Below the pieces are notes generated by a model. The model was not told the origin of the DNA. It saw nothing but the letters and a program-made list of their open reading frames with translations, and did not search any database. From a virus, in IMG/VR virus record IMGVR_UViG_3300006914_000021, positions 1 through 26,781 of that record: a DNA stretch of 26,781 bases; one strand, written 5' to 3'. Below are positions 4,980-20,069 of the stretch, piece by piece. Position 1 is the first letter of the stretch. Each line of letters starts with the position of its first letter. A program made the position numbers and the translations under genes.

Positions 4980-5043
4980 GTCACACGCTCCTGCCAGACT
5001 CTTCGGTTGGCTGGGTGAGTCGGCGAACCTCGCCGAAACTCAA

Positions 5044-5064: not shown

Positions 5065-5078
5065 CGTTCTGAACGCTA

Positions 5079-6743
5079 TCACGAACTTTGTGATTCTTTC
5101 GGAGATTCATCCTCCAATTCTTGGATCCATGCACTCGTTGTCCATGTCGCGATCTCTTCTTTTCGTCGTTGTGCTTTGTCGATGATGTGATCGATGGTGC
5201 GCTGACCATTCGGTCCTTCAGCAATCATGTGGAAGTAACTGACTGCGTGAATCTGACCTTCACGATGAACGCGATCATCGAATTGTTTCTCGATGAAATA
5301 GCTGTAGTCGCGTGACATCTTGACGATTGTATGAGAGCCAGTAAAGTTGTAACCAAAAGCACCTGCTGATGTTGCGAGTACGACTGCTGGTCGTGTTTTA
5401 TCAGCAGTCATGGGATGTAGCAATCGAACTGCTTCACGTTTTTCAAGACCGCCACGGAGCTCACCAACATCAAGATTTGGGAACTCATCTCGGAGCTTCG
5501 CAGCGGCTCGAGCAAGTTCAGGACGGAATCGGATGCGAACGAGTGCTTTGAATGCAGAATCTTCTTCAAGACGGATCTTCAGCCACTCGATGAACACATC
5601 CTGTTTCTCAGAACTCAGTTCACGGACAGGATCTACTGGTCTTCGTGACCTTTCAGTGAATGGGATGAAATCCGGTCGGGTTTCATCTTTCATTTCTTCC
5701 TGGATTTCATCTTGGAGTGGTGATTCTTCAAGACCTCCGATAAATCCTGATGTGATCTGCGACAGACGCATGGCTTTCACAACTGCTTGCGCTGCCGCCG
5801 AAACTGCTTCTGGACTCTTCAGCCAGAGAACCATTTCATCTTTCATCTCCTTGTAGCGTTTCCATGTTGCTGGCGAGAGTGTAACCGGAATCACCACTGG
5901 AGGGAGCTTTGGCGGAAGATCGACGCAGTTCTCTTTCAGACGACGAAGCACGTATGGCGCAAATCGTTGCTGTAGATCCTCGATGTTCTGCCATCCGAGA
6001 TTGATCTTGTAGATGTGACCATCGCGAGTTTCTTTCGATGTTCGCATCTGATATCGTCCACGAAACATCTCCTTGGTTGGACAGTCAAGGATGTCCGGAT
6101 GCATCATGTTACCCTGACTGAACATATCCATCGGTGAGTTAGCGATTGGTGTTCCGTTCAGGAGAATCACTCGACCCACTTTCTTTCGGATCGTGCGGAC
6201 TCCTTTGGTCTGCAGAGACTTACTGCTTTTGATGGCTGTTGATTCATCGAGAACGAGCAGAGTAGATCGTTTCATCAATGGAACAAGAGGTTCGAGGTGT
6301 TTCTTGTTCCGAAGATACTCGTAGTTGGTGATTGTCCAATAGAGACGACGATTCGCGAACTCTGGAATCCACTTCCACGTTCGCCACTTCCCATGATAGA
6401 GAGTGATTTGGCTCGGTAACTTCTCCCAGAGATGTTTCGCGAGCTCGCCAAGTTCTGGATCGTACCACACGAGACGAGTTGCTGCTGGTGCGACGACTAT
6501 GACATGATCAATGATCCTCGCGAGGAATAAGAGCTGTGCAGCTGCGATAACTTGAAGTGTCTTGCCGGCACCCATCTCATCGAAGAGTGCGAAATATGGA
6601 TTCTCGAGCAGTTTCTTGATTCCGATGACTTGGTGAGCCCATGGTCGGAATCGGCATCGCTCAAGATGAAATTTCTCTCGGAGGAGTAGAGTTTCAGGAG
6701 TGTCTTGGACTTTCTTGGCGGGGACTACGAGTTCGTCATTCAT
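5079..6743 (-). CDS. SNF2-family DNA helicase/ATPase
   Basis: 554 residues, a compact two-lobe SF2 enzyme. Visible motifs: FRPWAHQVIGIKKLL (Q-like region), DEMGAGKT (55-62, Walker A), VVAPAATRLVW (motif Ia), LVLDESTAIK (Walker B, DESTAIK at 166-172), LLNGTPIANS (motif III, 194-203). In the second lobe there is ATSAGAFGYNFTGS (motif V) and DDRVHREGQ (489-497), equivalent to the QxxxRxxRxGQ arginine finger of SNF2 proteins. These use ATP to translocate on duplex DNA; phage copies are thought to help replication or recombination. It starts 8 bases inside the preceding small gene without a clear Shine-Dalgarno, so translational coupling is likely. Confidence 0.92.
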   Translation of the reverse strand: MNDELVVPAKKVQDTPETLLLREKFHLERCRFRPWAHQVIGIKKLLENPYFALFDEMGAGKTLQVIAAAQLLFLARIIDHVIVVAPAATRLVWYDPELGELAKHLWEKLPSQITLYHGKWRTWKWIPEFANRRLYWTITNYEYLRNKKHLEPLVPLMKRSTLLVLDESTAIKSSKSLQTKGVRTIRKKVGRVILLNGTPIANSPMDMFSQGNMMHPDILDCPTKEMFRGRYQMRTSKETRDGHIYKINLGWQNIEDLQQRFAPYVLRRLKENCVDLPPKLPPVVIPVTLSPATWKRYKEMKDEMVLWLKSPEAVSAAAQAVVKAMRLSQITSGFIGGLEESPLQDEIQEEMKDETRPDFIPFTERSRRPVDPVRELSSEKQDVFIEWLKIRLEEDSAFKALVRIRFRPELARAAAKLRDEFPNLDVGELRGGLEKREAVRLLHPMTADKTRPAVVLATSAGAFGYNFTGSHTIVKMSRDYSYFIEKQFDDRVHREGQIHAVSYFHMIAEGPNGQRTIDHIIDKAQRRKEEIATWTTSAWIQELEDESPKESQSS

Positions 6744-6957
6744 GTGAGTTCGGTTTATCTTGTAGTTCGTTCCACAAATTCACATCTGGTGTGATGACTG
6801 CACCATTGTTTCGGATTTCTGCCCATGACCATGATTCAGCGCCTTCGACACGAAGTAGGAACTGAATCTCACCAGTTGGTAACTCAGGATGGTTTGTCTC
6901 ACGTAGAATCCGTTGAACTGCGTCAGCAATCTCACGCTTCTGTCGAACTGAAAACAT
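6736..6957 (-). CDS. small conserved phage protein
   Basis: 73 residues. The N-terminus (MFSVRQKREIADAVQRILRE) is one amphipathic helix. The next part, LPTGEIQFLLRVEGAESWSW and then AEIRNNGAV, is a recurrent phage small-protein sequence with no known function that I often associate with helicase/exonuclease neighbours. GAGGAAT lies just before the ATG. The 3' end overlaps the SNF2 gene by 8 bases. Confidence 0.7.
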   Translation of the reverse strand: MFSVRQKREIADAVQRILRETNHPELPTGEIQFLLRVEGAESWSWAEIRNNGAVITPDVNLWNELQDKPNSHE

Positions 6958-6963
6958 AATTCC

Positions 6964-7746
6964 TCATTTGGTTGGGAAAACTCCATGAAGAGCATCTGAT
7001 GCAATCTTCTTCGCATCAGATAGAAATCCATCATCGCGGACAATCCACTCCAGATATCCACGATCTCTTTCGAGCACTTTCTCGATCCAGATCTCCTTGT
7101 GCTTTCCGAATCCCATCACGCAACGACCATCTTTCCAGAGGAACTTGCCTTTCTTGTCGATACGATTAGAATTCTTGTTGAAACACATGTCGTGCAGAAG
7201 TTGCAGATCGGCAGGAAGCACATCAGGATGACGTTGGAGTTGCGCAATTGCGACTTCAAGTGCATCTTTGGCATCACCAGCCGCTCGATGTTGATCCGTT
7301 GGTTTTCGACCAAGATATTCCTCGACCGCATCCACCAATCGTCGTTTCTTTGCGACTCCCCATAATTTGTAGGAATCGAGGAGTCGTGCGCCGTCTGATG
7401 ACCAACGAACTCCAGAACGATCCATTTCATCCTGAATGACATCGATGTCGAAGACGATGTTGTAACCACAGTAGTCACAATTCTGGAATCCTGTTGCTAG
7501 ATTCGCAGCAATCTGATGAAATCGCGGAGCTTTCGCCACCATCTCATCATTGATGCCGTGAATCTCTGTTGCTCCTGGCTCAATTGGTTCACCAGGATTG
7601 ATGTAGGAACACCATTCCTTTGGTTTCCGTTTGTCTGGATACTCGACCACAAAACCGAGTTCCACAATCCGATGAGTTCGGAGTGTGGTCTCAACATCGA
7701 CAGCGATGAGAGGTCGAGTAAGTTCAAGAATGTCGTGAATTCGCAT
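6964..7746 (-). CDS. DnaQ-like 3'-5' exonuclease (DEDDh)
   Basis: 260 residues. Exo I is AVDVET (Asp17, Glu19), Exo II is GYNIVFDIDV (Asp100), and Exo III is HRAAGDAKDA (His153, Asp158), which makes it a DEDDh nuclease like the proofreading subunit of Pol III. The C-terminal 70 residues contain GFGKHK and then YLEWIVRDDGFL, matching the FGK...YLxW module fused to many phage DnaQ-type exonucleases. It may proofread for the phage polymerase, whose own exonuclease motifs look altered. The start lies within the end of a small upstream gene (23-base overlap) and lacks a strong ribosome site. Confidence 0.88.
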   Translation of the reverse strand: MRIHDILELTRPLIAVDVETTLRTHRIVELGFVVEYPDKRKPKEWCSYINPGEPIEPGATEIHGINDEMVAKAPRFHQIAANLATGFQNCDYCGYNIVFDIDVIQDEMDRSGVRWSSDGARLLDSYKLWGVAKKRRLVDAVEEYLGRKPTDQHRAAGDAKDALEVAIAQLQRHPDVLPADLQLLHDMCFNKNSNRIDKKGKFLWKDGRCVMGFGKHKEIWIEKVLERDRGYLEWIVRDDGFLSDAKKIASDALHGVFPTK

Positions 7747-7864
7747 ATCGATGTGGCATCAGTCGGATAAATTCGACAATCTGTCCTGTTCTCACATCTA
7801 TCCAGCGTTCAACATGAGGCCAATGTCGATACGCGAGGAATGCCCACCATCCTGGTTCAGTCAT
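7724..7864 (-). CDS. 46-residue coupled hypothetical protein
   Basis: A short frame starting at an ATG that overlaps the TGA of the gene before it (ATGA) and ending 23 bases inside the exonuclease gene. The peptide is aromatic and basic (EPGWWAFLAYRHWPHVERW, then DVRTGQIVEFIRL). No family recognised. It was identified by the unbroken chain of overlaps between 7974 and 7746 and by plausible composition. Its translation would carry ribosomes onto the exonuclease start, which lacks a good Shine-Dalgarno. Confidence 0.55.
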   Translation of the reverse strand: MTEPGWWAFLAYRHWPHVERWIDVRTGQIVEFIRLMPHRYANSRHS

Positions 7865-7974
7865 CGGTGTGGTGGATATTCTCGCCACTCCGAACGGATT
7901 GGCAGACTATCAGACATTCGCATATCCTTCCAGTCGTGCCATTTGCGTGAGAGCCACAGAATGAATCGTAGCAT
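7861..7974 (-). CDS. 37-residue coupled hypothetical protein
   Basis: A tiny frame between the stop of the 181-residue gene (TGATG at 7974) and the next small gene (ATGA at 7861-7864). The peptide MLRFILWLSRKWHDW and the following basic-acidic stretch could be an amphipathic, membrane-touching helix. It is too short to place in a family. Evidence is the exact overlap at both ends. It could be a translational bridge rather than a working protein. Confidence 0.45.
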   Translation of the reverse strand: MLRFILWLSRKWHDWKDMRMSDSLPIRSEWREYPPHR

Positions 7975-8519
7975 CAGTAGTTCCTCGTTTCCCAGAAGAT
8001 GGTGTTTCTACGAAGGACACCAACTGGACAATCGAAACACGTGAATTCTATTGTCGCATCAGGAAAGAGATCAAAGAGTGCGTCCAAATCATCACGTGAT
8101 GGAGGATCCATGAACGAGTTGAGTAGAACGAACGTTTCGACTGGTGAACGTGGTTTGAGTATGCCTTGTGACATCGCCACACGCATAGGAAAATGACTAG
8201 CGCCAATAAAGCCTTCAAGACCACGAAATGTTCGACACACCTCGCCTTGAATCGTTTGATGTGAATCAGGAACGCGATCATCGATGAAATAATTGCCTAG
8301 TCCGTGAAGTGAATCCCACAAATGGACTTCAGTCCAGAATATATCTCGTGTAACACCTCGCCACATTCCACCACCGCCACCACGTTGTGCCATACGAAAT
8401 CCATATTCGGGAACTTCCCATGACCAAGCGATATCAGGATCTTGGGTTAGTCGTGTTCGGTTGCCGAGAACTCCTCGATGCCAGAGATCGAAGAATTCAG
8501 CTTTTGTTCGTATCTCCAT
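7974..8519 (-). CDS. hypothetical phage protein
   Basis: 181 residues. It has an N-terminal helix (TKAEFFDLWHRGVLGNRTRL), a glycine run (RGGGGGMWRGV) and aromatic-rich segments with a single cysteine pair (FTCFDC) near the end. I do not recognise the family. The gene lies downstream of the thymidylate synthase homologue in the same transcript, overlapping the intervening 70-residue gene by 23 bases. A role in nucleotide or DNA modification metabolism is suggested only by location. Confidence 0.65.
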   Translation of the reverse strand: MEIRTKAEFFDLWHRGVLGNRTRLTQDPDIAWSWEVPEYGFRMAQRGGGGGMWRGVTRDIFWTEVHLWDSLHGLGNYFIDDRVPDSHQTIQGEVCRTFRGLEGFIGASHFPMRVAMSQGILKPRSPVETFVLLNSFMDPPSRDDLDALFDLFPDATIEFTCFDCPVGVLRRNTIFWETRNY

Positions 8520-8709
8520 CTTTGGTCACACGAAATTGTGCGGATCCAACAAAGTTGGCGATCATGTCAACTTTGTCAGCTTCGTTTCGGATCGCTTCGG
8601 CGAGTTCGTTGTACATTCTCACACGACTGCTGCCAACTGCAGTCTGCTCAACATCACGCGCAATGCGACGGAGATTGAGACTGATTTCCTTCACTGTTTC
8701 AATTCGCAC
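8497..8709 (-). CDS. 70-residue hypothetical protein
   Basis: A GTG at 8709, preceded by GAGAAGG at 7 bases, opens a 70-residue frame that overlaps the end of the thymidylate synthase gene by 11 bases and the next gene by 23. The peptide (ETVKEISLNLRRIARDVEQT, then VRMYNELAEAIRNEADKVDM) is helical with heptad-like spacing and could form a short coiled coil. The frame is open further upstream, but those codons lie inside the synthase and look unlike protein. Function unknown. Confidence 0.6.
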   Translation of the reverse strand: MRIETVKEISLNLRRIARDVEQTAVGSSRVRMYNELAEAIRNEADKVDMIANFVGSAQFRVTKDGDTNKS

Positions 8710-9799
8710 GTTTGACCTTCTCTTCCCAGATCTTCTGACGACGAAGAATCCACTCGGTTGCTGCGAACAGCCAATCAACAGGTTTGCCGACGGCGACAGA
8801 CGCAGCATTGAGTTCGAGTAGTGCTTGAGAGAATCGTTCTGGTGCTGGCAACTCTCGCCAAGCTTCGTGAGCTTGCAGAATCTTGAGAACCATCTCCTGC
8901 CACGGATTCGGATTCCGTGGCTTGATACGTTCGAGTCCGAAGTGCGTGTCTGCCTGCAGCAGGATTTCAGTGATCTGGTCATCGAGTCTTCTGATGGTTA
9001 CCGACGGATGTTCGAACTGCGTCGTCGGATAGATCATCGGAAGATTCTCGACGTATCCCGTCTCGTAAGGATTCGGCGTGTTGATGAAATCAGCGACAGA
9101 TTTCACTTGCTCGAACGCCTCGCGATATGCGTGCCAGTTGACTGAGATCTGGCGAAAGACTCCAACCGGACAGCCGATCCAGATTGCCATATATTCGAGG
9201 AGAACTGAGAAGTGCACAGCGTTGGCACCATACGCTCCCCAGATGATATCATTGGATCGGCAAAACAGAGTCATGTCGAGCCGACCTTCTTGATCACGTT
9301 GAAATGTTAGGCAGAGATTGCACGGAAATGCTTTGCCATTCTTGCCGAGATCAGATGTGGGATCCCACATCTGGAGCACACAACGACGACTATCGCGATG
9401 GACGCGAAGTTCTTCAGCAATCGGTTCGAGTTGATCGAATTCGAACCACTTGCGCCATCGGTAGCCATACGCATCGTGGATGGTTTTTCCGTCATCGCTG
9501 TAGTTGATCATGTTCTTTGCATAGCGAGCGACGGATCCAGCATCGTTGCGTCCGTTCAACATCCACAGACTTTCGTAGAGATGGAAGAACGGATTGGCGT
9601 CGCGTTCTGGCCAGAACAGCACGCGTTCGAGTGGTTTCCGATATATGGTTGTGACCGGATACGGAGTCAGGATGACTTTCCCGTTCCGACTATCGCGTTC
9701 GTCACCATGTAAGATCAGGTGACTGACAGCAATTGGCAATACTTCGTGCACATTGCGTGCATCAATCACTACCATCTGTGGAATTTCACGAACGATCAT
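8699..9799 (-). CDS. thymidylate synthase family protein (TS or dUMP hydroxymethylase)
   Basis: 366 residues, longer than bacterial ThyA (264). The fold markers are present: FHLYESLWMLNG (Glu76, equivalent to E. coli Glu58), catalytic Cys160 in AFPCNLCLTFQ, CRSND (Arg181, Ser182, Asp184 for phosphate), Asn193 in WGAYGANAVHFS (aligned to the uracil-contacting Asn177) and NWHAY (His223, Tyr225, equivalent to His207/Tyr209). Asn rather than Asp at 193 points to dUMP, not dCMP. The variant GAYGAN loop and the absence of the WDEW tryptophans differ from true ThyA. Whether it methylates or hydroxymethylates dUMP cannot be read from sequence. With hmdU-kinase-type genes just upstream, 5-hydroxymethyl-dUMP synthesis is plausible. 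Confidence 0.88.
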   Translation of the reverse strand: MIVREIPQMVVIDARNVHEVLPIAVSHLILHGDERDSRNGKVILTPYPVTTIYRKPLERVLFWPERDANPFFHLYESLWMLNGRNDAGSVARYAKNMINYSDDGKTIHDAYGYRWRKWFEFDQLEPIAEELRVHRDSRRCVLQMWDPTSDLGKNGKAFPCNLCLTFQRDQEGRLDMTLFCRSNDIIWGAYGANAVHFSVLLEYMAIWIGCPVGVFRQISVNWHAYREAFEQVKSVADFINTPNPYETGYVENLPMIYPTTQFEHPSVTIRRLDDQITEILLQADTHFGLERIKPRNPNPWQEMVLKILQAHEAWRELPAPERFSQALLELNAASVAVGKPVDWLFAATEWILRRQKIWEEKVKRAN

Positions 9800-10035
9800 G
9801 ATCGTGTCTCCGGAAAGAATGGCGTAGCGAGAATAGTTGGTTCTGGCCGAAGTTGACCACCTTCGATGTAACCGTGGTCTTCTACAGTTTCACCATCCCA
9901 CATCACTGAATACATGATACATTTCTGCCCAGTGCCAGACGGTGTGGATGAGTAGACGCGATTGATTTTCCCACGTTTGAAGGGACGCAGTTCATCCCAC
10001 GTGGATTTGATGACGCGGTCGCCGACTTTGAACAT
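9796..10035 (-). CDS. small SH3-like barrel protein
   Basis: 79 residues beginning MFKVGDRVIKSTWDELRPF, followed by GKINRVYSS, IMYSVMWDGETVED and GYIEGGQLRPEP. The pattern of short strands with a VGDRV start and a WDGE turn resembles KOW/SH3-like or YorP-type small barrels found in phages. It is coupled on both sides (TAATG upstream, ATGA to the thymidylate synthase gene). It is probably an accessory of the modification enzymes or a nucleic-acid binder; function unproven. Confidence 0.65.
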   Translation of the reverse strand: MFKVGDRVIKSTWDELRPFKRGKINRVYSSTPSGTGQKCIMYSVMWDGETVEDHGYIEGGQLRPEPTILATPFFPETRS

Positions 10036-10886
10036 TAGAGATACCGACGTTTCAGTCGTTGACCTTGGGCACCACGACTGTATTTGTCATACTCGCAAAG
10101 CCAATGTTCGACTTCGCGCATCTCCCACTGTTTCCAATCTGCTGGCCAATAATGAGAATGCTGGCTCATGGCCAACAGATTGTCGCACTCCTTCAACATC
10201 TCACACTGGTCAGTCTGGGATCCACGATGAAATGCTCGTGAGTTGTCACGAAGAATGCGACCCATACCATGAGTTGCGCCAGGACCGAGATTGGCCCAAT
10301 TCATGATATCGACTGCATCCTCCAACACGGGAGTCCATCGCAAATCAGTCACAACTTCGTATGCCATGAATGGTCCAAGATATGGAATATCCTGAAGATC
10401 CATCCACGCACGACGAAGTGAGTTTCCCCAGAGCTTGACCATGTCTGGTAGAAGGATTCTGGCCACTCGAACACATTCGAGGATTCCATCAAGCTTGTTC
10501 TTTCCAGTCAACGTCTTGATCATGTATGCACCAGTGACCAATGGCTTCACATGAACGAGACGTCGGTTTGCTTCATCCTGATTCCATCCGTTGAGCAGCA
10601 GATCCTGGATGACTTCACCAGTCTCGATGCGGTTGAACCAACGGAAGATGATGGTAGCTTCGACGATCTTCAGATAATTGCGTTTAACGCAGAGAGGAAA
10701 TCGCACGTTGTCGCGAAACCAGACGGTTGTTCGGTCATCTTCACGATGGACGTTGCAGAACCGATACTCCTGAAACACACCGTCTGTGGTCCATGGCCAG
10801 GGAAGACCTTGTTCTCGTCTCAGTTTGATCTGATATCGTTCGCGTGCGGTCGCGAAGAACTTCAGACGTTGATCGTCGACGGCCAT
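10035..10886 (-). CDS. 5-hmdU DNA kinase helical-domain protein (DNA base hypermodification)
   Basis: 283 residues. The N-terminus ARERYQIKLRREQGLPWPWT followed by YRFCNVHREDDRTT (41-54) is the signature I associate with the helical domain of 5-hydroxymethyl-dU DNA kinases, described in phage thymidine hypermodification systems. A helix-hairpin-helix-like part reads YLGPFMAYEVVTDLRW (169-184) and NLGPGATHGMGR (199-210), as in DNA-glycosylase-type folds. It should bind hydroxymethyluracil-containing DNA and act with the P-loop kinase encoded directly upstream, whose 3' end it overlaps by 25 bases; in some phages I believe these are fused. Exact chemistry here is inference; membership in a base-hypermodification family is fairly firm. 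Confidence 0.82.
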   Translation of the reverse strand: MAVDDQRLKFFATARERYQIKLRREQGLPWPWTTDGVFQEYRFCNVHREDDRTTVWFRDNVRFPLCVKRNYLKIVEATIIFRWFNRIETGEVIQDLLLNGWNQDEANRRLVHVKPLVTGAYMIKTLTGKNKLDGILECVRVARILLPDMVKLWGNSLRRAWMDLQDIPYLGPFMAYEVVTDLRWTPVLEDAVDIMNWANLGPGATHGMGRILRDNSRAFHRGSQTDQCEMLKECDNLLAMSQHSHYWPADWKQWEMREVEHWLCEYDKYSRGAQGQRLKRRYL

Positions 10887-11449
10887 CCCATTGCCTCCAG
10901 AACTGCATTCAATGCGTCAGTTCGGTTCAGAAGACGGAAATCAACTCCAGCGTCACGGAAACGCGAACGCTGATTCTTGACTCCTTCCATCTTCTTGTGG
11001 GCCGTCTTGATTGTAGATTCTTTCATCTCCTGGACGGAGCCTCGTTCGTCTCGACGTGCCTGGATGCTCGCAATGCAGACGTCAAGCGGAGTGTTGAGTT
11101 CGATGACCATCAACTGATACCGACGCTTGAGATCACAACATCGGATCACATCACTGGCAACGATGAGACCTTCGTAGATCACATCCCATCCCATCTTGGC
11201 TGGCGCTTCGATGAGTTCGTAGATGTAGTCAAGTCCGTTGAGAGTGTCGCAACCACCACATGCTGTTTCGTAATGGCCAGGAACGTAGAGAGGACGAACC
11301 AAACTTCTTGGTTCACGATAGAACCTGTAACCGACTGGCTGCTTTCTACCAGAACGGAACATTGGTTCACGGACCTGGTAGTTCTTCATCAATTCACGCA
11401 CGATGAAACTCTTGCCAGAACCGGACGTTCCTCTTAGATTGATTATCAT
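10862..11449 (-). CDS. P-loop nucleotide/5-hmdU DNA kinase
   Basis: 195 residues. Walker A GTSGSGKS (7-14) directly at the N-terminus after MIINLR, a YETACGGCDTL motif (60-70) and VIYEGLIVASD (90-100). This order (P-loop, CGGCD, EG) is typical of the P-loop kinases proposed or shown to phosphorylate 5-hydroxymethyluracil in phage DNA. A lid-type region with basic residues (ARRDERGS) follows. It is the first gene after a promoter motif at 11468-11478, only about 20 bases from the -10. Its partner helical-domain gene overlaps it. A free-nucleotide kinase is the alternative. Confidence 0.82.
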   Translation of the reverse strand: MIINLRGTSGSGKSFIVRELMKNYQVREPMFRSGRKQPVGYRFYREPRSLVRPLYVPGHYETACGGCDTLNGLDYIYELIEAPAKMGWDVIYEGLIVASDVIRCCDLKRRYQLMVIELNTPLDVCIASIQARRDERGSVQEMKESTIKTAHKKMEGVKNQRSRFRDAGVDFRLLNRTDALNAVLEAMGWPSTINV

Positions 11450-11467
11450 GACTTTACTGGTGCCTAT

Positions 11468-11478
11468 ATTCTACTACG
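11468..11478 (-). promoter_or_regulatory. minus-strand promoter candidate (CGTAG-TAGAAT)
   Basis: On the minus strand CGTAG is followed immediately by TAGAAT and then ATAGG, aligning with CGTAG-TATACT at 1350-1369 and 5044-5064. It lies about 20 bases before the kinase ATG, so the leader is very short. A tandem 11-base repeat (11499-11520) lies upstream of it in the position of an activator or -35-region site. Confidence 0.5.
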
Positions 11479-11498
11479 TTTTCTTGTGAAAAGCTAGA

Positions 11499-11520
11499 AG
11501 AAACGTTGCAGAAACGTTGC
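11499..11520 (-). repeat. tandem 11-base repeat upstream of the kinase promoter
   Basis: Two perfect adjoining copies of AGAAACGTTGC (minus strand GCAACGTTTCT). The 11-base period places both on one face of the helix, each with the palindromic core AACGTT. The location 20-50 bases upstream of the -10 makes it a candidate binding site for a regulator of the hypermodification genes. It lies between the stop at 11526 and the promoter. Confidence 0.6.
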
Positions 11521-11525
11521 TGTAA

Positions 11526-11954
11526 CTATCTTTGATCCGGATGACATTGGCCGTTGCATCCGATGTGGAGGCACTTTGAACAAGTCGGACGATTCTCGAT
11601 TTTGTATGGTGTGATTTTGCTGAAATCACGACCATGACGTTGTGCCGCTCGATCTTCAAGCAACCAGATCGCACATTGTAATTGAAGAATTACTCCGTCA
11701 TTTCGTTTGTCAGGAATCTGATTGTTGAGATATTTCACTCGGTCAATCAGTGCGCGAAGGACTTCCTGAATGGTGGTTCCGGGATGATGGTAGACATTGC
11801 CAGGATATCCTGGTCCTTCGCGTTTCACGAACTGAAGTGTGTTGGTGCGGAATGGTCGCGATACTTCTTGTTCTGGATCGTTCAGTTCCGCGACTTCTGG
11901 TTCACCATCAAGCCACTGGAGTTCGTAGACGTGACCAGGATCAATAACCTTCAT
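11526..11954 (-). CDS. conserved phage protein with C-terminal cysteines
   Basis: 142 residues from the ATG at 11954, which overlaps the upstream TGA (ATGA); the ORF could start 17 codons earlier inside the HD gene. The segments KVIDPGHVYELQWLDG, QFVKREGPGYPGN and TTIQEVLRALIDRVKYL form a family I have seen in phages beside replication and nucleotide genes, with no assigned function. The C-terminus (CSKCLHIGCNGQCHPDQR) carries four cysteines and a histidine and probably binds zinc. Confidence 0.72.
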   Translation of the reverse strand: MKVIDPGHVYELQWLDGEPEVAELNDPEQEVSRPFRTNTLQFVKREGPGYPGNVYHHPGTTIQEVLRALIDRVKYLNNQIPDKRNDGVILQLQCAIWLLEDRAAQRHGRDFSKITPYKIENRPTCSKCLHIGCNGQCHPDQR

Positions 11955-12535
11955 GTTGTGATCATCCTGAAATAATCGAGAAAGAGTTGCTCTGACCACT
12001 TCCAATCCCAGAACGACCAGTGCCCAACCAGATCTTCTTCCTCTTTGGTCATCGCTGGAAATTCACCATCACCTGGTCCGTGATGTTCATCAATCACAAA
12101 ATCCTTGCCGAATGCTTTCCTCGCTTCAAAGCGGACCATCACTCGATCGGCTTTGGTGATAGAAGGATGAAGACTCATCGGAAGATCAAATCTCTGGTAG
12201 ATTCGACTCTGCACTTCGTGTTCGAGGAGTCGATATCCATCAAGAAATGCTGTCCTCTTGATCCATCTCGTGATGTCACCGAGATATGCTTCTGCTGCAT
12301 CATGCAGAAGTGCTTGGAGTCGGATCCATTTCGCTTGCGCAAATGGATCTTTCTCCACTACGCGAACGACATAGACTGAATGTTGCGCGACACTGATCGG
12401 CTTCTTTGAATGGCCAGCAAACCGATTGCACAATGCCAGCGCATGTGCGATATCTTCGATGCAGATATCCTCGTGTCGAAGATCGGTCGGGTCGATATGC
12501 TTGCCAGTGAACGTCGTCTGCAACCAGTTAGTCAT
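11951..12535 (-). CDS. HD-domain phosphohydrolase (YfbR-like nucleotidase)
   Basis: 194 residues. The HD metal site is visible: ISVAQHSVYV (His52), ALLHDAAEAYLGDI (His78, Asp79) and a downstream KADRV helix. Spacing and the HDAAEAYLGD wording match phage and bacterial YfbR-type enzymes, which remove phosphate from deoxynucleoside 5'-monophosphates. A phage could use it to prune dNMP pools, for example normal dTMP or dCMP when a modified thymine is being made; that use is inference. It is coupled on both sides by ATGA overlaps. Confidence 0.85.
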   Translation of the reverse strand: MTNWLQTTFTGKHIDPTDLRHEDICIEDIAHALALCNRFAGHSKKPISVAQHSVYVVRVVEKDPFAQAKWIRLQALLHDAAEAYLGDITRWIKRTAFLDGYRLLEHEVQSRIYQRFDLPMSLHPSITKADRVMVRFEARKAFGKDFVIDEHHGPGDGEFPAMTKEEEDLVGHWSFWDWKWSEQLFLDYFRMITT

Positions 12536-12747
12536 GACTCGAGATAGACGTTCTTCGCTCTCGGTCCGCGCTGAGAATGTTCCAGATCATCCTCGAACGT
12601 GACCTTGTCGTCCTGAGTCATCTCGGTGATCTCCGCGTTCCGGAGATTGCTTTTGTGGAAGAAATATTCGCGACCATCGTCACCCTTGATGAAACCGAAT
12701 CCCTTGTCGATGATCACTCGTCGAATCGTACCATGTATCGCCGCCAT
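12532..12747 (-). CDS. cold-shock domain protein (CspA-like)
   Basis: 71 residues, the usual length for a Csp. RNP1 is KGFGFI (15-20) and RNP2 is YFFHKS (28-33). The ending RGPRAKNVYL is also typical. These bind single-stranded RNA or DNA and act as RNA chaperones. The ribosome site is an ideal AGGAGG at 6 bases, one of the strongest in the window, so it may be made in quantity. It is followed by the HD gene via ATGA. Confidence 0.93.
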   Translation of the reverse strand: MAAIHGTIRRVIIDKGFGFIKGDDGREYFFHKSNLRNAEITEMTQDDKVTFEDDLEHSQRGPRAKNVYLES

Positions 12748-12755
12748 GTCGCCTC

Positions 12756-13130
12756 CTAGAACTTGAAATCAAGCTCAACGCTGCCGATTTCGAACTCCCG
12801 CCGATGACCCGGATACGCTGTTACTTCGATGACTTTCACTGTGATTGCCGACGGATGGATTCCTGTCTTCCGTTTGAAGATTTCGAGTTGCGTGCGGAGG
12901 GCGTTGACCAAATTGACCTTGAGTAAAGAAATCTCTTCGGCGACGAGCATAACGTCCATAGATGTCTCCATAGACTGTTGGTGGCTCGAAGATAGAGGTT
13001 CCGTCGAGCCGTCGGAGATTAGGAAGTCGCCACGATTCATCGGACAGTGTGCTTCGCTGTGGTATCCACGTCCGCATATCCGGCACTTCGGGCCAAGCGA
13101 AAGGAATGGGATCCCAGGTTGTGGCGACAT
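12756..13130 (-). CDS. zinc-knuckle and helical hypothetical protein
   Basis: 124 residues. CRICGRGYHSEAHC near the N-terminus is a CCHC-type knuckle. The second half (MLVAEEISLLKVNLVNALRT, then IFKRKTGIHP and ITVKVIEVTAYPG) looks like genuine protein with a helix followed by beta strands. Its stop lies 9 bases before the Csp start region. The first part shares its DNA with the coupled frame from 13230. The exact start is uncertain; the half-way methionines (at MDVMLVAEE) are an alternative. Confidence 0.6.
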   Translation of the reverse strand: MSPQPGIPFLSLGPKCRICGRGYHSEAHCPMNRGDFLISDGSTEPLSSSHQQSMETSMDVMLVAEEISLLKVNLVNALRTQLEIFKRKTGIHPSAITVKVIEVTAYPGHRREFEIGSVELDFKF

Positions 13131-13230
13131 ATGGCGGACTCACTTTCTGCAGCGCGTCCGCTGCTTCTTGTGGTGAGAGTGGTTGAAGACCGACGCATGA
13201 AACTATGATGCCGATAATTGTACAGGTCAT
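12775..13230 (-). CDS. overlapping frame starting at 13230, hypothetical
   Basis: The ATG at 13230 overlaps the upstream TGA (ATGA), as for proven neighbours, so ribosomes should enter this frame. The N-terminus has a short hydrophobic stretch (CTIIGIIVSCVGLQPL) and then SPQEAADALQKVSPPY, which looks like protein. After about residue 50 it becomes Arg/Ser-rich while the +1 frame (the 13130 gene) looks like the real coding sequence. Either a short gene, a frameshifted single gene, or truly overlapping genes is possible. The second half should not be trusted. Confidence 0.35.
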   Translation of the reverse strand: MTCTIIGIIVSCVGLQPLSPQEAADALQKVSPPYVATTWDPIPFAWPEVPDMRTWIPQRSTLSDESWRLPNLRRLDGTSIFEPPTVYGDIYGRYARRRRDFFTQGQFGQRPPHATRNLQTEDRNPSVGNHSESHRSNSVSGSSAGVRNRQR

Positions 13231-13760
13231 TTGTCAGGATCCTCGTATTGAAGATGGGATGCGTTCGGTTGATCTGGATGTTGTTCAGACCATGATTTCC
13301 ATCCTTTCTCGGTGAACTCAGTCGAGTAGACTTCGCCTCGCGGAAGAATCGGCTGCCAGTTCTCGTCGCAGAAAACACGATAGTGCGTCACGATTGCTCT
13401 GGCGGTTGGCATCTTTGCAGATTCCATCCACACGAGTTTCTTGTTCTCGCCGAAGAATGCATCAACCCACTTCTCGGCCAGTTTGTTGTCGAACGGACGT
13501 CGCTGATGAGTGACTGGATCAGCAAACGACAACGACAAGTGAAGACATTTGTCGTAATCAGGATTCTTAAACCACCCACTCGAATGCATGCCCTCATCTC
13601 GAGTGAAGATGATCAGAGTTCCTGTTGCAGCATGGAAATGAGTGCACGGTGCATCTGGCAGACCTTGACCACGATGCGTTTGCCGAGTCATCGCGATCAG
13701 GCGTGCGTTGGCCGCGAACGACGACAACGATTCAAGAGTTCGCTTGTCAATGAACATCAT
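13227..13760 (-). CDS. conserved phage protein of unknown function
   Basis: 177 residues. It starts at an ATG overlapping the upstream TGA with GAGG just before it. Segments LESLSSFAANARLIAM, PDAPCTHFHAATGTLIIFTRD and SSGWFKNPDYDKCLHLSLSF form a sequence I recognise as recurring in phages, with no function known to me. It has several His and aromatic residues. The gene lies between modification-type genes and small zinc proteins; no specific role can be read. Confidence 0.7.
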   Translation of the reverse strand: MMFIDKRTLESLSSFAANARLIAMTRQTHRGQGLPDAPCTHFHAATGTLIIFTRDEGMHSSGWFKNPDYDKCLHLSLSFADPVTHQRRPFDNKLAEKWVDAFFGENKKLVWMESAKMPTARAIVTHYRVFCDENWQPILPRGEVYSTEFTEKGWKSWSEQHPDQPNASHLQYEDPDK

Positions 13761-14212
13761 TTACCTCGCGTAATGTTCGGCAATTTCATGCGTTCCGGAT
13801 ACTTCTCAGCAAACGCACGGAATTTCGCAATCGTTGCTTTGTTGCTGAGCAGATGCTCCTCCTTCGCAATCGGATCCGAATATTCGGTTTCGACGACAAT
13901 CTTGCCATAGGCTTCGAGTGTAGGAATCGCCAGACGATCACGAGCACGGAGCAGAACGAGTGGTTCCTCTTCCGGAACTTCCTGACCGTTGGATGTTTTG
14001 ATGACCGAGATCTTCGCTGTTCTTAGATCTGCGTGGATGTGGAAACGAGACGTTAGTTGCCTATTCATTGAGACCAATGGTTCGTGCAGCATATTTCTCG
14101 CAGCACCAGGATCCTTGCATTCGAGCGCTGTGCAGACCAATTGATGTTCATTGTTCACAGAAAGCGTATGATTTCCGCACGACGGACACAAGACGTCTTG
14201 GATGAGTATCAT
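13757..14212 (-). CDS. zinc-ribbon phage protein
   Basis: 151 residues counted from the ATG at 14212, which has GGAG at 6 bases and overlaps the glycosyltransferase stop (TGATG). A start 4 codons upstream (14224) is less likely. The N-terminus carries CPSCGNHTLSV and, 14 residues after the first pair, C-x4-C (VCTALECKD), a zinc ribbon. The remainder is charged and partly helical (LRARDRLAIPTLEAYG; ATIAKFRAFAEKYP). It is not assigned to a family with known function. Confidence 0.68.
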   Translation of the reverse strand: MILIQDVLCPSCGNHTLSVNNEHQLVCTALECKDPGAARNMLHEPLVSMNRQLTSRFHIHADLRTAKISVIKTSNGQEVPEEEPLVLLRARDRLAIPTLEAYGKIVVETEYSDPIAKEEHLLSNKATIAKFRAFAEKYPERMKLPNITRGK

Positions 14213-14985
14213 CACCATCTCCATTTTGGTCCGCGAACCAGTCGCCAGTTCGGGATTGTTTGCAAACCACCGTCAAGAGTGCGATATCCGTTGCACGTGA
14301 CTGTATCAGGAAATCGTGACAGAATGATCCGCTTCGCTTCTTCTTGCACTTCCTTCGATTTGTTCATCGACGAATCGCGAAGTGCTTCTCGTTTGTCAAC
14401 ACCGATCGCAGCGACTCGACCCAGACAACCATCTTTCTCACGATGTGCTGCCGAACGGTAGACATCTTCGTATGCCGGCAGATTTTCGTCGAGGAAGAAG
14501 GAAGGATCTTCGCATGCTGCACATAGTTGCGCACCACCAGTGATCAAACCGAATGTTCGCTTGAAACCAGTTCCGAGCCAATCCTTGCGTGCCGTATTCT
14601 GAAATCCGTTGAGTGATGTTCCGAGTGCTTCAGCACACTTCCGCGCTTCTGTGATGGCTTCAATCCACGGAATTGGTCCTTGCTTGTTCACGAACATATT
14701 CGCATGCCAGTCATCATCGAGTCGGAAGTAGAACCGAAATCCTGCCTTGAATGCTTGCCGATAGCACTCAAGAGATTGCGGAATCATTCCGACTTTTCCT
14801 TCAACCACTCGAATCTGGGAATTGGCGATGGTCTTGTTCGCTTCAAGTGTTCGTGGATCTGATTGAATGATGATCGGCAACGAAATGTTTTGCTGTAGCA
14901 ACAGTTGCAAAGTGCGCAACGGAGTTGCTCGTTTCGTCGGAATGATGATGACCGTATCCTTCAGGATTTGGTCGGTTTCAGCCAT
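14212..14985 (-). CDS. GT-A glycosyltransferase, TAGT-like (DNA base modification)
   Basis: 257 residues. The start TVIIIPTKRA is a GT-A nucleotide-sugar strand, the metal-binding motif is FRLDDDW (87-93, DxD type), and an acidic AYEDVYRSA (171-179) sits where GT-A enzymes place a base or acceptor-site acid. This layout resembles the TET/JBP-associated glycosyltransferases predicted to add sugars to hydroxymethylated bases in phage DNA; no TET/JBP oxygenase is in the window. It would act on modified thymine here if the pathway is right. Ribosome site AGGAAA lies 8 bases upstream; the start overlaps the radical SAM gene by 25 bases. A glycosyltransferase for another acceptor is the alternative. 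Confidence 0.62.
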   Translation of the reverse strand: MAETDQILKDTVIIIPTKRATPLRTLQLLLQQNISLPIIIQSDPRTLEANKTIANSQIRVVEGKVGMIPQSLECYRQAFKAGFRFYFRLDDDWHANMFVNKQGPIPWIEAITEARKCAEALGTSLNGFQNTARKDWLGTGFKRTFGLITGGAQLCAACEDPSFFLDENLPAYEDVYRSAAHREKDGCLGRVAAIGVDKREALRDSSMNKSKEVQEEAKRIILSRFPDTVTCNGYRTLDGGLQTIPNWRLVRGPKWRW

Positions 14986-15950
14986 ATCGGTTTCCTGTGA
15001 TTGTAAGCAGATTCGGTCAGCGCAATCTGCTCTGGAGTTGGCGGATCGTAGTGAGGAAGAAGTCCGCTGCGTGGAGCTGACGGAGCATCACATTCGCGAC
15101 ACGGACCCCAGTTCCGATCGTGTTGCAGAAGTCGTGCTCGAGCGGCTTCCATCTTGGGATGTTTCCAGAGCTCCTCGAGCGTGAACGTGTTGACGTTGCC
15201 GATAATATACTCCATCCGCCAGTCGTCGCAGCAGAGCGTGAGATTGCCTTCAGTCGTGAACGTCATCTCACGAAATGGTCGACCACAGTTGCGATGGAGT
15301 GGTTCACGAATTTGCTTGGTCTGATTACTTCCAGCATGAGTCTTGACGAGACGACTTTGATGTTCACCATCTCGAACTGACAAATCATCCATCAAGATGA
15401 TAGTCCTCTGCCACGTATTGTGCCGAGCATACGGACTTTCACCAGCTGGCATCATCTCGTCGAAATAGTCAACAACTCGCACATCTTTCAGAGCCCACGC
15501 TTGCTCACGAAGTTGATCGCGTCGTTCTTTCGGATAGTAGGTATCGAGCAAGATGAAATTCAATCCTGTCTCGAAGATCTTCTCGACTGCGTCCTGCATC
15601 CGATTCCGCAGAGTGTCACCATTCGTGGTAACCATGATGCTGGCTTCAGGCAGATACTTTCGGAACATCTTGAAGATTTCAAGATGTTTCGGATGCATCA
15701 GTGGTTCGCCACGCATCGCATACTCGACACGGATTTTCGGACACCAGTCGGCAGCCTGAGATGCGATTCGTTCGGCAGTCGTGAGAGACATGTATTCGTA
15801 GTTGCCTGGTCCTTCGCGAATCGCCGTGATCCCGCAGAAATGGCAGAGACCACCAGGACCGGATCCGTGGCGCATCGAGCAACCACGAACCAATTCAGGC
15901 TGAAGGCACCACGGAGTGCCACCTTCATCAGCGCGCAGTTGCTTGGCCAT
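14961..15950 (-). CDS. radical SAM enzyme with SPASM-like C-terminus
   Basis: 329 residues. The iron-sulfur cysteines appear as Cys24 (VRGCS), Cys36 and Cys39 (CHFC): CX11CX2C rather than the usual CX3CX2C, an expanded loop with precedent in Elp3-type enzymes. A GEP motif (81-83) and VTTNGDTL (107-114) fit the SAM-binding barrel. The C-terminal part has CGRPF (Cys222), GNLTLCCDDW (Cys240, Cys241) and CREC (284-287), typical of SPASM/twitch clusters. Related phage radical SAM enzymes rearrange amino-acid adducts on thymine, and I infer a similar role. GAGGAA precedes the ATG; it overlaps the phosphatase gene by 23 bases. Confidence 0.85.
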   Translation of the reverse strand: MAKQLRADEGGTPWCLQPELVRGCSMRHGSGPGGLCHFCGITAIREGPGNYEYMSLTTAERIASQAADWCPKIRVEYAMRGEPLMHPKHLEIFKMFRKYLPEASIMVTTNGDTLRNRMQDAVEKIFETGLNFILLDTYYPKERRDQLREQAWALKDVRVVDYFDEMMPAGESPYARHNTWQRTIILMDDLSVRDGEHQSRLVKTHAGSNQTKQIREPLHRNCGRPFREMTFTTEGNLTLCCDDWRMEYIIGNVNTFTLEELWKHPKMEAARARLLQHDRNWGPCRECDAPSAPRSGLLPHYDPPTPEQIALTESAYNHRKPIWLKPTKS

Positions 15951-16389
15951 AATTCCTCACGAAATGCTCGAATCGCGGATTGTGTAACAGTCGCGGACGT
16001 TGAAGACGAATTCGGTCGATGATCTCTCCTGGTGGAACTCCTGTGACTTCAGCACAGGCAGGGATGGCAATGAGTGCGGACCGATTGTATCCGGAATCGC
16101 AGTGAACCAGGACTCCGGTGTATTCCATTGTCTCAGCGACCTCGTTGATGAGATCAGTGACCTGAGTTGGAATCTCCTGCAAACGACTGTCCCGCAGAGG
16201 AACATGTTTGTAGACGATTCCGACTGTTTGGCACGCACGTTCGAGGAAGTCGTCAGCAATGATGGCAACGTTCAACACCTTCCCGATATCCTTCTCGTGG
16301 ATTTCGCGAAGCATCACTGTCGAGAGAATTCCTCTCGTGTGTCCACGAATGAATAGTCGTGGATGAAGTTCAATCAAGCGAGCGGACAT
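15928..16389 (-). CDS. dual-specificity-type (Cys-based) phosphatase
   Basis: 153 residues. The active-site loop is HCDSGYNRS (96-104), a perfect HCx5RS signature with nucleophile Cys97 and Arg103. A general acid candidate is Asp67 in VPLRDSR, correctly upstream. The fold order (VLNVAI strand, ADDFLERACQ helix, VHC strand) fits dual-specificity phosphatases. They hydrolyse phosphate from proteins, nucleotides or lipids. Between the radical SAM gene and the helical transferase candidate, a substrate in base modification (for example a phosphorylated hydroxymethyluracil or its by-product) is conceivable but unproven. GAGG lies before the ATG; it overlaps the upstream gene by 16 bases. Confidence 0.85.
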   Translation of the reverse strand: MSARLIELHPRLFIRGHTRGILSTVMLREIHEKDIGKVLNVAIIADDFLERACQTVGIVYKHVPLRDSRLQEIPTQVTDLINEVAETMEYTGVLVHCDSGYNRSALIAIPACAEVTGVPPGEIIDRIRLQRPRLLHNPRFEHFVRNYGQATAR

Positions 16390-17342
16390 GGTCGCCTCAC
16401 AGGATTCTTGAGATTCGTTGTTGCCTTGAAATCGTAGATTGCGTCAGACCACGTGTAGCCATAATTGTACAACACGTAGCCAAGATCTTTGCGCACGCCA
16501 TCCCATCCATTGAGCTCACCGAGAGCCCACGAAGGACTCACGATCTTTCGGACTTCGAGATGCTGACTCTTGAAGTCTGACTTCGTTCCCCACCAGCCAG
16601 CGATTTCCATCTCGTAGCCAAGCTCGGAGTCGAGACTTCGTCCCGGGTATTGGCGATGTGTCTTGTAGGATTCCTTATATTCGCAGAGCATGACTTCTTG
16701 CTCGAACCGCGAAATCTGGAGTCCGTGCTCACGAATCTTCTTGTAGTTATCGGCAGCAAGTTCCTCTGCGTTCTTTATCGCAGCATGCGAATTGAGCCGA
16801 CAGTCATCGTTTCGGTCGTAGATCAGATTCAACGCTTCGCGAGGACTCCATCCTCCGTCGGCACGAATATCTGGACATTCAGCTGAGATGAGATCCATTC
16901 GATGCCAGATCTCGCACAATTTAGTCGCTGCGTATCGGCCGACATGATGCATATCTTTCGCGAAGTCCCACACTTCCTCGAACTCAGCATCTTTGAGAGT
17001 CTGGAGTTCTCTGACAACGTTCTTGAATCCCCAGAGGTAGTCCGACATCCGTTCCGGTGATTTTACTGTTCGACGTTCGCGACGAGTGCGAAGACCAGGC
17101 CAATATTCCTTGAGCCATTCCTCGGTTGATTTCGGATCCTCATGATTCTCGGGAAACACATGCGTCCACATTGCTTCAGCAGACGGCACATTGTAGAATC
17201 CGACATAGAGCATGGATCGCCAAACCTTCTCGACGAAATCACAGTCTCGAGACATTTCGACGACTGCTTGCATGTGAGGATCTGGACCTCCGGTGAGTCT
17301 CTCGTACATGCAGAAATCGAAGAAATGTTGGAAGTGATTCAT
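16374..17342 (-). CDS. helical HhH protein, candidate amino acid:DNA transferase-type
   Basis: 322 residues from the ATG at 17342, one base after the upstream TAA; the longer reading frame upstream is dropped because it overlaps a coupled gene. The N-terminus FDFCMYERLTGGPDPHMQ and VWRSMLYVGFYNVPSAEAMW is followed by a DNA-glycosylase-like helix-hairpin-helix HHVGRYAATKLCEI and an acidic pair DIRADGGWSPREAL. This reminds me of the alpha-glutamyl/putrescinyl-thymine pyrophosphorylase and amino acid:DNA transferase proteins, which displace pyrophosphate on activated hydroxymethyluracil to attach an amino acid or amine. I cannot prove the family from memory. Position beside radical SAM and glycosyltransferase genes supports it. 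It could also be an unrelated HhH DNA-binding enzyme. Confidence 0.45.
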   Translation of the reverse strand: MNHFQHFFDFCMYERLTGGPDPHMQAVVEMSRDCDFVEKVWRSMLYVGFYNVPSAEAMWTHVFPENHEDPKSTEEWLKEYWPGLRTRRERRTVKSPERMSDYLWGFKNVVRELQTLKDAEFEEVWDFAKDMHHVGRYAATKLCEIWHRMDLISAECPDIRADGGWSPREALNLIYDRNDDCRLNSHAAIKNAEELAADNYKKIREHGLQISRFEQEVMLCEYKESYKTHRQYPGRSLDSELGYEMEIAGWWGTKSDFKSQHLEVRKIVSPSWALGELNGWDGVRKDLGYVLYNYGYTWSDAIYDFKATTNLKNPVRRPCPLA

Positions 17343-17924: not shown

Positions 17925-18075
17925 CTTGCTTTACTGCTGGAATCATCAACACCACGTAATGATAGAGACAAACACGCATCTTGCCTTTCTCATGAAAATC
18001 TATGATTTCTTGCCCGAGATGTTTACATCCTTCTACTTGACACAGATACGGATGTGGTTCAATCGGGAAGTTCAT
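17899..18075 (-). CDS. 58-residue putative zinc-binding protein
   Basis: The ATG overlaps the polymerase TGA (ATGA). The frame ends 26 bases inside the nuclease gene. Ligands are visible as CQVEGC (12-17), H19, H28 and CLYHY (36-40), a plausible zinc finger. It is too short to place but has good composition. It probably accompanies the polymerase or nuclease. Confidence 0.62.
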   Translation of the reverse strand: MNFPIEPHPYLCQVEGCKHLGQEIIDFHEKGKMRVCLYHYVVLMIPAVKQDGRKISQS

Positions 18076-20069
18076 GCTGCTTCGTTGTACTCCTGAATGT
18101 CACGCCAGTTCGGACCGTAATTCGTCTCCCACAGAATTGGAATTCTGGTCTTGAACGACTGCCGATTCAGGATCTTGTGCACCTCACGAACAGTTTCGAT
18201 TCCACCTCTTGCGTCACCATCCACTTCATCATGAACAGTGTAACGAAGCAGGAATCCAATTTGACGCGATACTTTGTGGAGCTCGACAAGCTTCTGCTTC
18301 ATGATGTCGGCAGCACTCGGCTGGATTCGAGTGTTCAGAGCCTTGTGCGCTCGTTCACCACCAGGAAACGTGCTTCGTCGACCCAAGATTGACTTGATGT
18401 ATCCCCGATTCTTCGCCAACTCCTCCGCTTTCTTCATCATTGGCTTGACTTCGGGGATCATTCGATTGTATAGTGCTTCGACCTCAAATGCTTCCTTCAG
18501 ATCCGGAGCATCACGCCAGTTGTCATCATGCAGCAACTCCAGATAACGTTGTTTCGTGATGAATCCTAGCATCCATGCTTTCTTCCGAGTTCCTGCTCCG
18601 TAGATCTGAGCGAAATTCGTGTCTTTGTTGCGACGATAGGTCAGATCCGGTTTGTAGACCTTCCACATCTTGTGCGTTTCTTTATGGAAGCTCGCTTTCG
18701 GGTTTTCTTCGTAGATCCTCGCGAGTCGATCCGACTTTGTTTCTTCCGCGAAGAGACGATACTCAATTTGCATCGCATCAGCGGATAGGAATAAAGCATC
18801 AGGATGGTCCGTCTTGTCCGGCACGTGAAGACGACGGATGATGAACAGTTCATCATCGTGCGAATCGTCTTCTTCATCGTAGCCAAACATAGTTCTTTGC
18901 TTTGCGGGTTTAATCGTCCGCTGAATGCCGAATCCTTCAACAGGTGCCTTCGTAAGTCTCGTAGAAGAAAATCGGCCTGAAATAGTGCCAGCTGTGTCTC
19001 TTTCATTCCACTCATCTTTCTGAGATGGAAGCTGATGCATTGCGAAACGAAGGATTCCAGTTGACCGATCTACCAACTGCGCATAGGGCAACAGATAGCT
19101 GTTGCGCAAATCCATGAGCTTGCTGATAGTGAATGCGATTTCAGTTTCTTCGGAATGATGGCGATGTTTCTTGAGGATGTCGGTAGTGAAACTCGGTTGC
19201 CCTTCCGGATGTGACGCACTTGGTGCCGTGTATTCGAGTGGGATTCCAATCTTCGTCCACAACCGAGCCATGTCAGAAGAAGAATTGACGTTGAGACGGA
19301 ATCCTGTCAGTTCGTAGAGCCGACGATATCCTTTCTCGATAATGCGTTGAGTCTCCGTCACCCAGCGGTCGAGGAGTTCAACATCAATCTTCGCTCCGTT
19401 CTTCTCCATCTCGCATACGACGTAGATGATCTCATCCTCTAGTTGTCGCACTTTCTGCAACCCGAGTTGAGTCATCTTAGGCCAGAAGATATCTCGGAGT
19501 AACTTGACTTGGCGAACATCTCCCACCGCTCGAACAGCAATCATGCCAGGAGGATAGTAAGCCATCCGTGCAGGATCGAGCTTCCATCCATCAACCACCA
19601 AGACTTTCTGTTCATCAGGAGGGAGGAAATCGCGACAAAGTGAAGCGAGTGAGAATTCTTGACGATGATCGTCTAGAAGAGCAGCATAATGTGCAACGTC
19701 AGAAACCTGGTTCCTTTGCTCTTCAAGGTCCACGCCCCAAACACGAGCCATGTGGACCTCGAATTTCGTTGCGAGATTCGTGATCCGTTTGCCACGAACC
19801 TGTTCGTGAAACCATCTCTTGCAAATTGCTTCATCATGTTGCGGACCGTCGAAGTTTCGGTGACCCCAGCCAAGATATCCGGATCGACCGTCTGGGAGGA
19901 ACCAGCCACATCCAAATGGCTTCGAACCTCCCCACCATCTAACTCCATCGGTCTCAAAATCGAGAAAGATTTCATTGATACCATCCAGGATGGGAGGGTC
20001 TTCTGGTTTCCACTGGGATTGTGGATAATCCGGACGGATGAGATCAAAGAGACTTTGCGATTGAGTCAC
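18072..20069 (-). CDS. DNA polymerase I (family A), with variant exonuclease motifs
   Basis: 665 residues, the size of phage Pol A lacking a 5' nuclease. Motif A is FLSADAMQIEYRLF (Asp431, Glu436, Arg438), motif B is RRNKDTNFAQIYG (479-491, Lys482, Phe486 rather than Tyr) and motif C is VHDEVDG (612-618, with Asp614). The 3'-5' exonuclease part has FLDFETDG (Asp37, Glu39), NLATKFEV (98-105, with Glu104 where Asp is expected) and AVGDVRQV (Asp184, without the usual Tyr before it). Start GTG lies 9 bases after the previous stop, without a strong ribosome site. It should be the replicative enzyme and must copy any modified thymine. Confidence 0.94.
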   Translation of the reverse strand: MTQSQSLFDLIRPDYPQSQWKPEDPPILDGINEIFLDFETDGVRWWGGSKPFGCGWFLPDGRSGYLGWGHRNFDGPQHDEAICKRWFHEQVRGKRITNLATKFEVHMARVWGVDLEEQRNQVSDVAHYAALLDDHRQEFSLASLCRDFLPPDEQKVLVVDGWKLDPARMAYYPPGMIAVRAVGDVRQVKLLRDIFWPKMTQLGLQKVRQLEDEIIYVVCEMEKNGAKIDVELLDRWVTETQRIIEKGYRRLYELTGFRLNVNSSSDMARLWTKIGIPLEYTAPSASHPEGQPSFTTDILKKHRHHSEETEIAFTISKLMDLRNSYLLPYAQLVDRSTGILRFAMHQLPSQKDEWNERDTAGTISGRFSSTRLTKAPVEGFGIQRTIKPAKQRTMFGYDEEDDSHDDELFIIRRLHVPDKTDHPDALFLSADAMQIEYRLFAEETKSDRLARIYEENPKASFHKETHKMWKVYKPDLTYRRNKDTNFAQIYGAGTRKKAWMLGFITKQRYLELLHDDNWRDAPDLKEAFEVEALYNRMIPEVKPMMKKAEELAKNRGYIKSILGRRSTFPGGERAHKALNTRIQPSAADIMKQKLVELHKVSRQIGFLLRYTVHDEVDGDARGGIETVREVHKILNRQSFKTRIPILWETNYGPNWRDIQEYNEAA

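Follow-up and report, generated by a model that had tools for sequence, protein, structure and literature searches.

Hypermodified thymines and the locus

Known thymine hypermodifications of the kind considered here are either amino acid derivatives or, as in Bacillus phage SP-15, a glycosylated alkyl chain. In Pseudomonas phage M6, the cluster gp51-gp59, which serves to make 5-aminoethyl-deoxyuridine (5-aminoethyl-dU), contains between its amino acid:DNA transferase (ADDT) and kinase genes the tailoring genes for a pyridoxal phosphate (PLP) enzyme and for gp53, a radical S-adenosylmethionine (SAM) enzyme that works as an isomerase, by which an N-linked amino acid becomes C-linked. In Pseudomonas phage PaMx11 (gp46-gp52) the tailoring genes in the same place encode a FAD enzyme and an acetyltransferase. 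Published work on these phages has 5-hydroxymethyl-dU (5hmdU) in the DNA handled first by a 5hmdU DNA kinase and next by a transferase (PMC6449724; PMC11955845). In Rhodococcus phage Tonitrus and in Gordonia phages (aGPT-Pplase2, PMC11955845), the ADDT is followed by a kinase and a further protein and preceded by a TET-like protein or an oxidoreductase, and no radical SAM enzyme, phosphatase or glycosyltransferase is annotated beside it. A precedent for a sugar on a hypermodified thymine is SP-15, for which glycosylated dihydroxypentyluracil and glycosyltransferase genes are listed, although its modifying group is a dihydroxypentyl chain and the source mentions no kinase, radical SAM enzyme or phosphatase (PMC5977210).

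Here we analyse a gene cluster in a 26.8 kb record of an uncultivated virus of bacteria, IMG/VR IMGVR_UViG_3300006914_000021, positions 1 to 26,781 (this whole stretch is called the window). The pathway genes named below all lie on the minus strand, within 8699-17342. Like M6, the window has genes for an ADDT, a radical SAM enzyme (rSAM), a kinase (KIN), a helical protein (HEL), a thymidylate synthase homologue (TS) and an HD-domain enzyme in one stretch near the family A DNA polymerase (PolA), and its order, ADDT-tailoring-KIN-HEL-TS-HD, is the same as in PaMx11. To judge by its genes, the locus looks complete as a set for thymine modification and is a core of the M6/PaMx11 type with a new gene combination in the known tailoring slot. 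An earlier note on this DNA, made from the letters alone, had proposed a hypermodification based on 5hmdU with an added sugar or a phosphatase step, and the core order, the recurrence in other lineages and the fold of the glycosyltransferase make this the best-supported reading: a post-replicative hypermodification of thymine like that of M6 and PaMx11 but with other tailoring genes, to which we give a probability of about three in four. All seven proteins that the note had named are present. Family matches were obtained for six of the seven proteins, and a GT-A fold was predicted for the seventh.

The comparison draws on a search with HEL that gave 80 IMG/VR loci, grouped, after three more loci were added, into 66 lineages (L numbers below). 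A second IMG/VR contig, 3300050505_000145 (53 kb), is a close relative, with 97% identity across 21 kb. A nucleotide search of the cluster against cultured phages gave no match, and scanning contigs of bacterial genomes with the ADDT alignment found none.

A core of the M6/PaMx11 type

The TS gene (8699..9799) matches the PHROG thymidylate synthase family phrog_5131 (E=1e-111), and its product is 46% identical to M6 gp58 and 45% to PaMx11 gp51 by BLAST. The Asn193 and GAYGAN loop read in the earlier note hold up: N193 and the catalytic cysteine C160 are conserved, and the loop is GAYGAN in M6 gp58 and GALGAN in PaMx11 gp51, features that fit a dUMP hydroxymethylase of this pathway type. A perfect 22-bp palindrome, CAGATGTGGGATCCCACATCTG, lies within this gene at 9352-9373 and is also present in the 97% relative.

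HEL (10035..10886) belongs to HMUDK_hel (PF18723, E=4.5e-39, over the Pfam cut-off), the helical partner or adaptor of the 5hmdU DNA kinase, and is 47% identical to PaMx11 gp50. The kinase gene (10862..11449) overlaps it by 25 bp; its product exceeds the cut-off of the P-loop family AAA_33, scores below that of HMUDK_HMUD1, and is 46% identical over 133 amino acids to PaMx11 gp49 and 23% to M6 gp54. PaMx11 has the closest HEL and kinase, and the block GHYETACGGCDT is common to the aligned window kinase and gp49. PHROG 800 and the GenBank records of M6 and PaMx11 would make this kinase a terminase small subunit, a reading that we rejected; the label is carried by M6 gp54 (L010), PaMx11 gp49 (L011) and phrog_800, and looks wrong for a 5hmdU DNA kinase. 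Two adjacent kinase paralogues precede HEL in L023, L040, L072, L086, L089 and L095.

The HD-domain deoxynucleoside-monophosphate phosphatase (11951..12535; phrog_318, E=1e-44) is of the same position class as M6 gp59 and PaMx11 gp52 and is part of the conserved set, being kept in L005, L006, L021 and others; the earlier note had not named it. The ADDT (16374..17342) is a divergent member of the aGPT-Pplase group. The likeness of this helix-hairpin-helix-type protein to amino acid:DNA transferases, already pointed out, is borne out by Pfam (PF18724, E=5e-9, over the cut-off, which genes of L021, L072 and L034 also exceed). Its clade differs from that of M6, with 16-19% identity to gp51 in the alignment, and the only cultured phages that it reached were the Gordonia and Rhodococcus phages (25-27%).

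The earlier note had left the limits of the pathway uncertain. They are made clearer by two runs of genes that overlap end to end, ADDT-phosphatase-rSAM-glycosyltransferase and KIN-HEL-p9796-TS, where p9796 (9796..10035) is a small open reading frame of 79 amino acids that overlaps TS by 4 bp and HEL by 1 bp and had no match in the family searches.

Beyond the pathway, the replication genes of the window encode PolA (18072..20069, minus strand; DNA_pol_A, E=9e-29), a VapE-like primase, an SNF2 helicase and a gp34-like protein. PolA is only 21-23% identical to the PolA of M6 and PaMx11, and the replication genes put the phage close to their group but outside it. The phage PolA is expected to copy DNA containing 5hmdU.

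The tailoring slot

Between ADDT and kinase the window has genes for a dual-specificity-type Cys phosphatase (DSP, 15928..16389), rSAM (14961..15950) and a glycosyltransferase (GT, 14212..14985), which with ADDT overlap by 16, 23 and 25 bp in turn. M6 has a different radical SAM enzyme, no relative of the window DSP and no GT annotated in its slot. Among cultured phages, none was found with the window GT, with a full-length relative of DSP, or with an ADDT pathway combined with GT, rSAM and phosphatase, in agreement with the suggestion that the combination is not that of any characterised phage. Against the 97% relative, nonsynonymous and synonymous changes number 0/6 in GT, 0/4 in rSAM, 2/11 in DSP and 6/32 in ADDT, and these four genes are under purifying selection. 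In the same comparison the frame 12756-13130 has 7 nonsynonymous changes and 1 synonymous change; the true gene here is probably 12775-13230, a frame overlapping that one, since it is open in both genomes and its start overlaps the preceding gene.

DSP exceeds the DSPc cut-off (E=3e-10), and the Cys-based phosphatase anticipated from the letters is recognizable in its intact signature HCDSGYNRS (C97, R103), in which CX5R is conserved in all five lineages that have DSP, in each case together with the near ADDT clade. In four of the five, DSP directly follows ADDT with overlapping ends, as in the ADDT-DSP pairs of L021 and L033 and in L006, whose order is ADDT-DSP-rSAM-x-GT-methyltransferase-KIN-HEL; in L005 (ADDT-rSAM-DSP-HD-KIN-HEL-TS), rSAM stands between them. 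An unrelated phosphatase, a low-molecular-weight protein tyrosine phosphatase (LMW-PTP), precedes the kinase, with an amidoligase-like gene, in Simon, L034 (with five GTs between), L040 and L047; the amidoligase-like assignment comes from a weak Pfam match, below the cut-off, in Simon only. The recurrence of unrelated phosphatases in a like place suggests a real phosphatase step. The pairs of amidoligase-like gene and LMW-PTP before the kinase are located at L015:9986-11399, L040:7317-8812, L047:6588-8064 and L034:2731-4285, and in L072 a HAD phosphatase gene overlaps ADDT (4445-5071).

GT has no Pfam match, and a sequence search with it found no PDB chain and no phage record. Its AlphaFold model (mc7a0229c747c, built from ten relatives; pLDDT 91.5, pTM 0.89) has a GT-A fold, with GalNAc-T2 as the best match (Z 14.8, with an rmsd of 4.0 across 225 residues), and the acidic DDD motif (D90-D92) is invariant among the ten relatives, so the GT-A enzyme with an acidic motif that had been read from the letters finds its counterpart in the predicted structure. 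When compared with models of viral proteins, it comes closest to glycosyltransferases, many of them named TAGT and one a beta-glucosyl-HMC-alpha-glucosyltransferase, with TM-scores of about 0.6-0.7; these families are tied to DNA bases. GT is not filed as a TAGT because it does not reach the gathering cut-off of the TAGT family (PF20691), its relative in L072 scoring 19.5 against the 27.5 bits required. The GT family occurs with kinase and ADDT in six lineages (the window, L006, L029, L034, L049 and L072). L034 has five tandem copies (5294-9180) between the kinase and a block of ADDT, amidoligase-like gene and LMW-PTP. Further tailoring variants are a Gfo/Idh/MocA oxidoreductase between ADDT and GT in L029 (6911-7930) and a class I methyltransferase after GT in L006 (12091-12726).

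It could be supposed that DSP, rSAM and GT are cargo with no link to the pathway beyond a common operon, their targets being, for example, proteins of the host or glycans of its surface. The lack of a Pfam name for GT, the resemblance of DSP to protein phosphatases (DUSP10 and others in the PDB, E~1e-9) and the small unrelated genes further down the same operon would fit such cargo, but the three genes are found again with this core in lineages of differing gene order and the viral fold matches of GT are glycosyltransferases linked to DNA bases, which makes this improbable.

rSAM exceeds the cut-offs of both Radical_SAM and SPASM, as the earlier note had it. In place of CX3CX2C, the SAM-cluster arrangement of BtrN-type dehydrogenases, its cysteines form C24-x11-C36-x2-C39. 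A five-sequence profile of the family finds BtrN (E=3e-16), a twitch radical SAM dehydrogenase of a cyclitol antibiotic, and the auxiliary cysteines C222, C240, C284 and C287 align with those of BtrN in the BtrN spacing, as in a twitch domain. BtrN and SpeY, the latter an enzyme of the same description by its PDB title, are also the first fold matches of the model. Unlike them, the enzymes of the window, L005 and L006 have an insertion of 8 residues giving C-x11-C-x2-C, whereas those of L036 and L069 align with the usual C-x3-C-x2-C; from this alignment, the inserted loop may mark a branch linked to ADDT. The only match among cultured phages, a distant one (MT835743, 23%), was dropped, as it is flanked by what look like ABC transporter and V-ATPase genes of bacteria.

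Since rSAM, like gp53, is encoded in the slot that separates ADDT from the kinase, it might work as a similar isomerase, and the earlier note had likened it to the radical SAM step of M6. That likeness did not survive comparison: BLAST finds no similarity to gp53 at E 0.1, the best solved relatives are the radical dehydrogenases BtrN and SpeY, no PLP enzyme was found beside rSAM, and relatives occur in loci without ADDT, so that a gp53-like role seems very unlikely, slightly more so than the cargo explanation. In four of the five lineages with rSAM (the window, L006, L036 and L069), a GT gene is adjacent or separated from it by a single small gene; depending on the lineage, this GT is a member of the window's family or a TAGT-type enzyme. 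Neither kinase nor ADDT was found anywhere on the L036 and L069 contigs of 60-63 kb. Because relatives of rSAM adjoin GTs in such ADDT-less loci, we favour as its target a sugar or, alternatively, a side chain that carries a hydroxyl group.

Partners of the helical protein and the proposed pathway

Across the 66 lineages, HMUDK_hel pairs with the kinase or with a TAGT glycosyltransferase, never with both. Thirteen lineages (L019, L030, L036, L044, L046, L052, L056, L069, L075, L079, L081, L084 and L090) have TAGT, HMUDK_hel and TS; none has the kinase (0/13) or ADDT, and TAGT is absent from the 48 kinase lineages (Fisher p=4e-10 with lineages as the units, although shared ancestry means that these are not independent). 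A search of eleven whole TAGT records, which may be fragments, found neither kinase nor ADDT; one of these, L031, is below the Pfam TAGT threshold and was seen with a local profile. As HEL co-occurs with one or the other enzyme, it may be a general adaptor for 5hmdU-DNA usable by a kinase or a glycosyltransferase. Between HEL and TS, L019 (9613-12637) encodes two TAGT glycosyltransferases, an unassigned protein and a MobA-like NTP-transferase, as if this phage made its own activated sugar.

The set of TAGT, TS and HEL without kinase and ADDT makes direct glycosylation of 5hmdU likely in those thirteen lineages, and the window GT resembles TAGT in its predicted fold. The window could therefore be imagined to give 5hmdU two parallel fates, GT glycosylating it directly at some sites, in the manner of base J, while kinase, HEL and ADDT make aminoacyl-thymine at others and the phosphatase returns phosphorylated sites to 5hmdU for GT. 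We regard this as possible but doubtful: the window's GT family keeps company with kinase and ADDT in its six lineages and lacks the kinase only once, in L030, where a TAGT-like gene also occurs, and the window GT gene overlaps rSAM inside the ADDT operon.

In the preferred reading, a single hypermodification with several tailoring steps, the core is well supported by gene families: TS would make 5hmdUMP, by which 5hmdU would enter DNA, the kinase with HMUDK_hel would phosphorylate 5hmdU within DNA, and ADDT would exchange the phosphate for an amino acid, while the HD enzyme would keep down a deoxynucleoside monophosphate that competes, such as dTMP. That GT, rSAM and DSP work on these same modified bases we infer from their synteny, gene overlaps and recurrence. 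Most likely GT would add a sugar, the BtrN/SpeY-like rSAM would oxidize a C-H bond in that sugar or in a side chain bearing a hydroxyl group, or rearrange it in some other way, and DSP would remove a phosphate, as a first guess that of unreacted 5-phosphomethyl-dU left by ADDT, a phosphorylated amino acid or sugar being possible substrates. In what sequence the last steps follow one another, and which base results, is guesswork.

Several points weigh against this reading. The fold of GT gives neither donor nor acceptor. The confidence of the rSAM model is moderate (pLDDT 70), so its link to BtrN rests mainly on the sequence profile. Neither of the solved ADDT structures in the PDB was hit by a profile made only from the window's ADDT clade; hits to solved structures came only once the profile also took in further clades, including M6 and PaMx11. 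Some members of the group lack GT or DSP, so neither is needed for the core; no GT was found in L005, though that contig ends just before ADDT.

We know of no radical SAM enzyme that acts on a sugar in DNA. It is a tentative proposal that kinase, ADDT, GT and the BtrN/SpeY-like rSAM build, within the DNA of this phage, a thymine that bears an amino acid together with a sugar oxidized by radical chemistry, and that HMUDK_hel is a general reader of 5hmdU-DNA, docked to a kinase in some phages and to a glycosyltransferase in others. The HEL pattern allows a direct test of the role of the helical protein, a question that its pairing with the kinase alone cannot answer. The cluster and its relatives would join the amino acid and the sugar chemistries of thymine modification, and their sets of kinase, ADDT, GT, rSAM and phosphatase may be enzymes ready for making new DNA bases.

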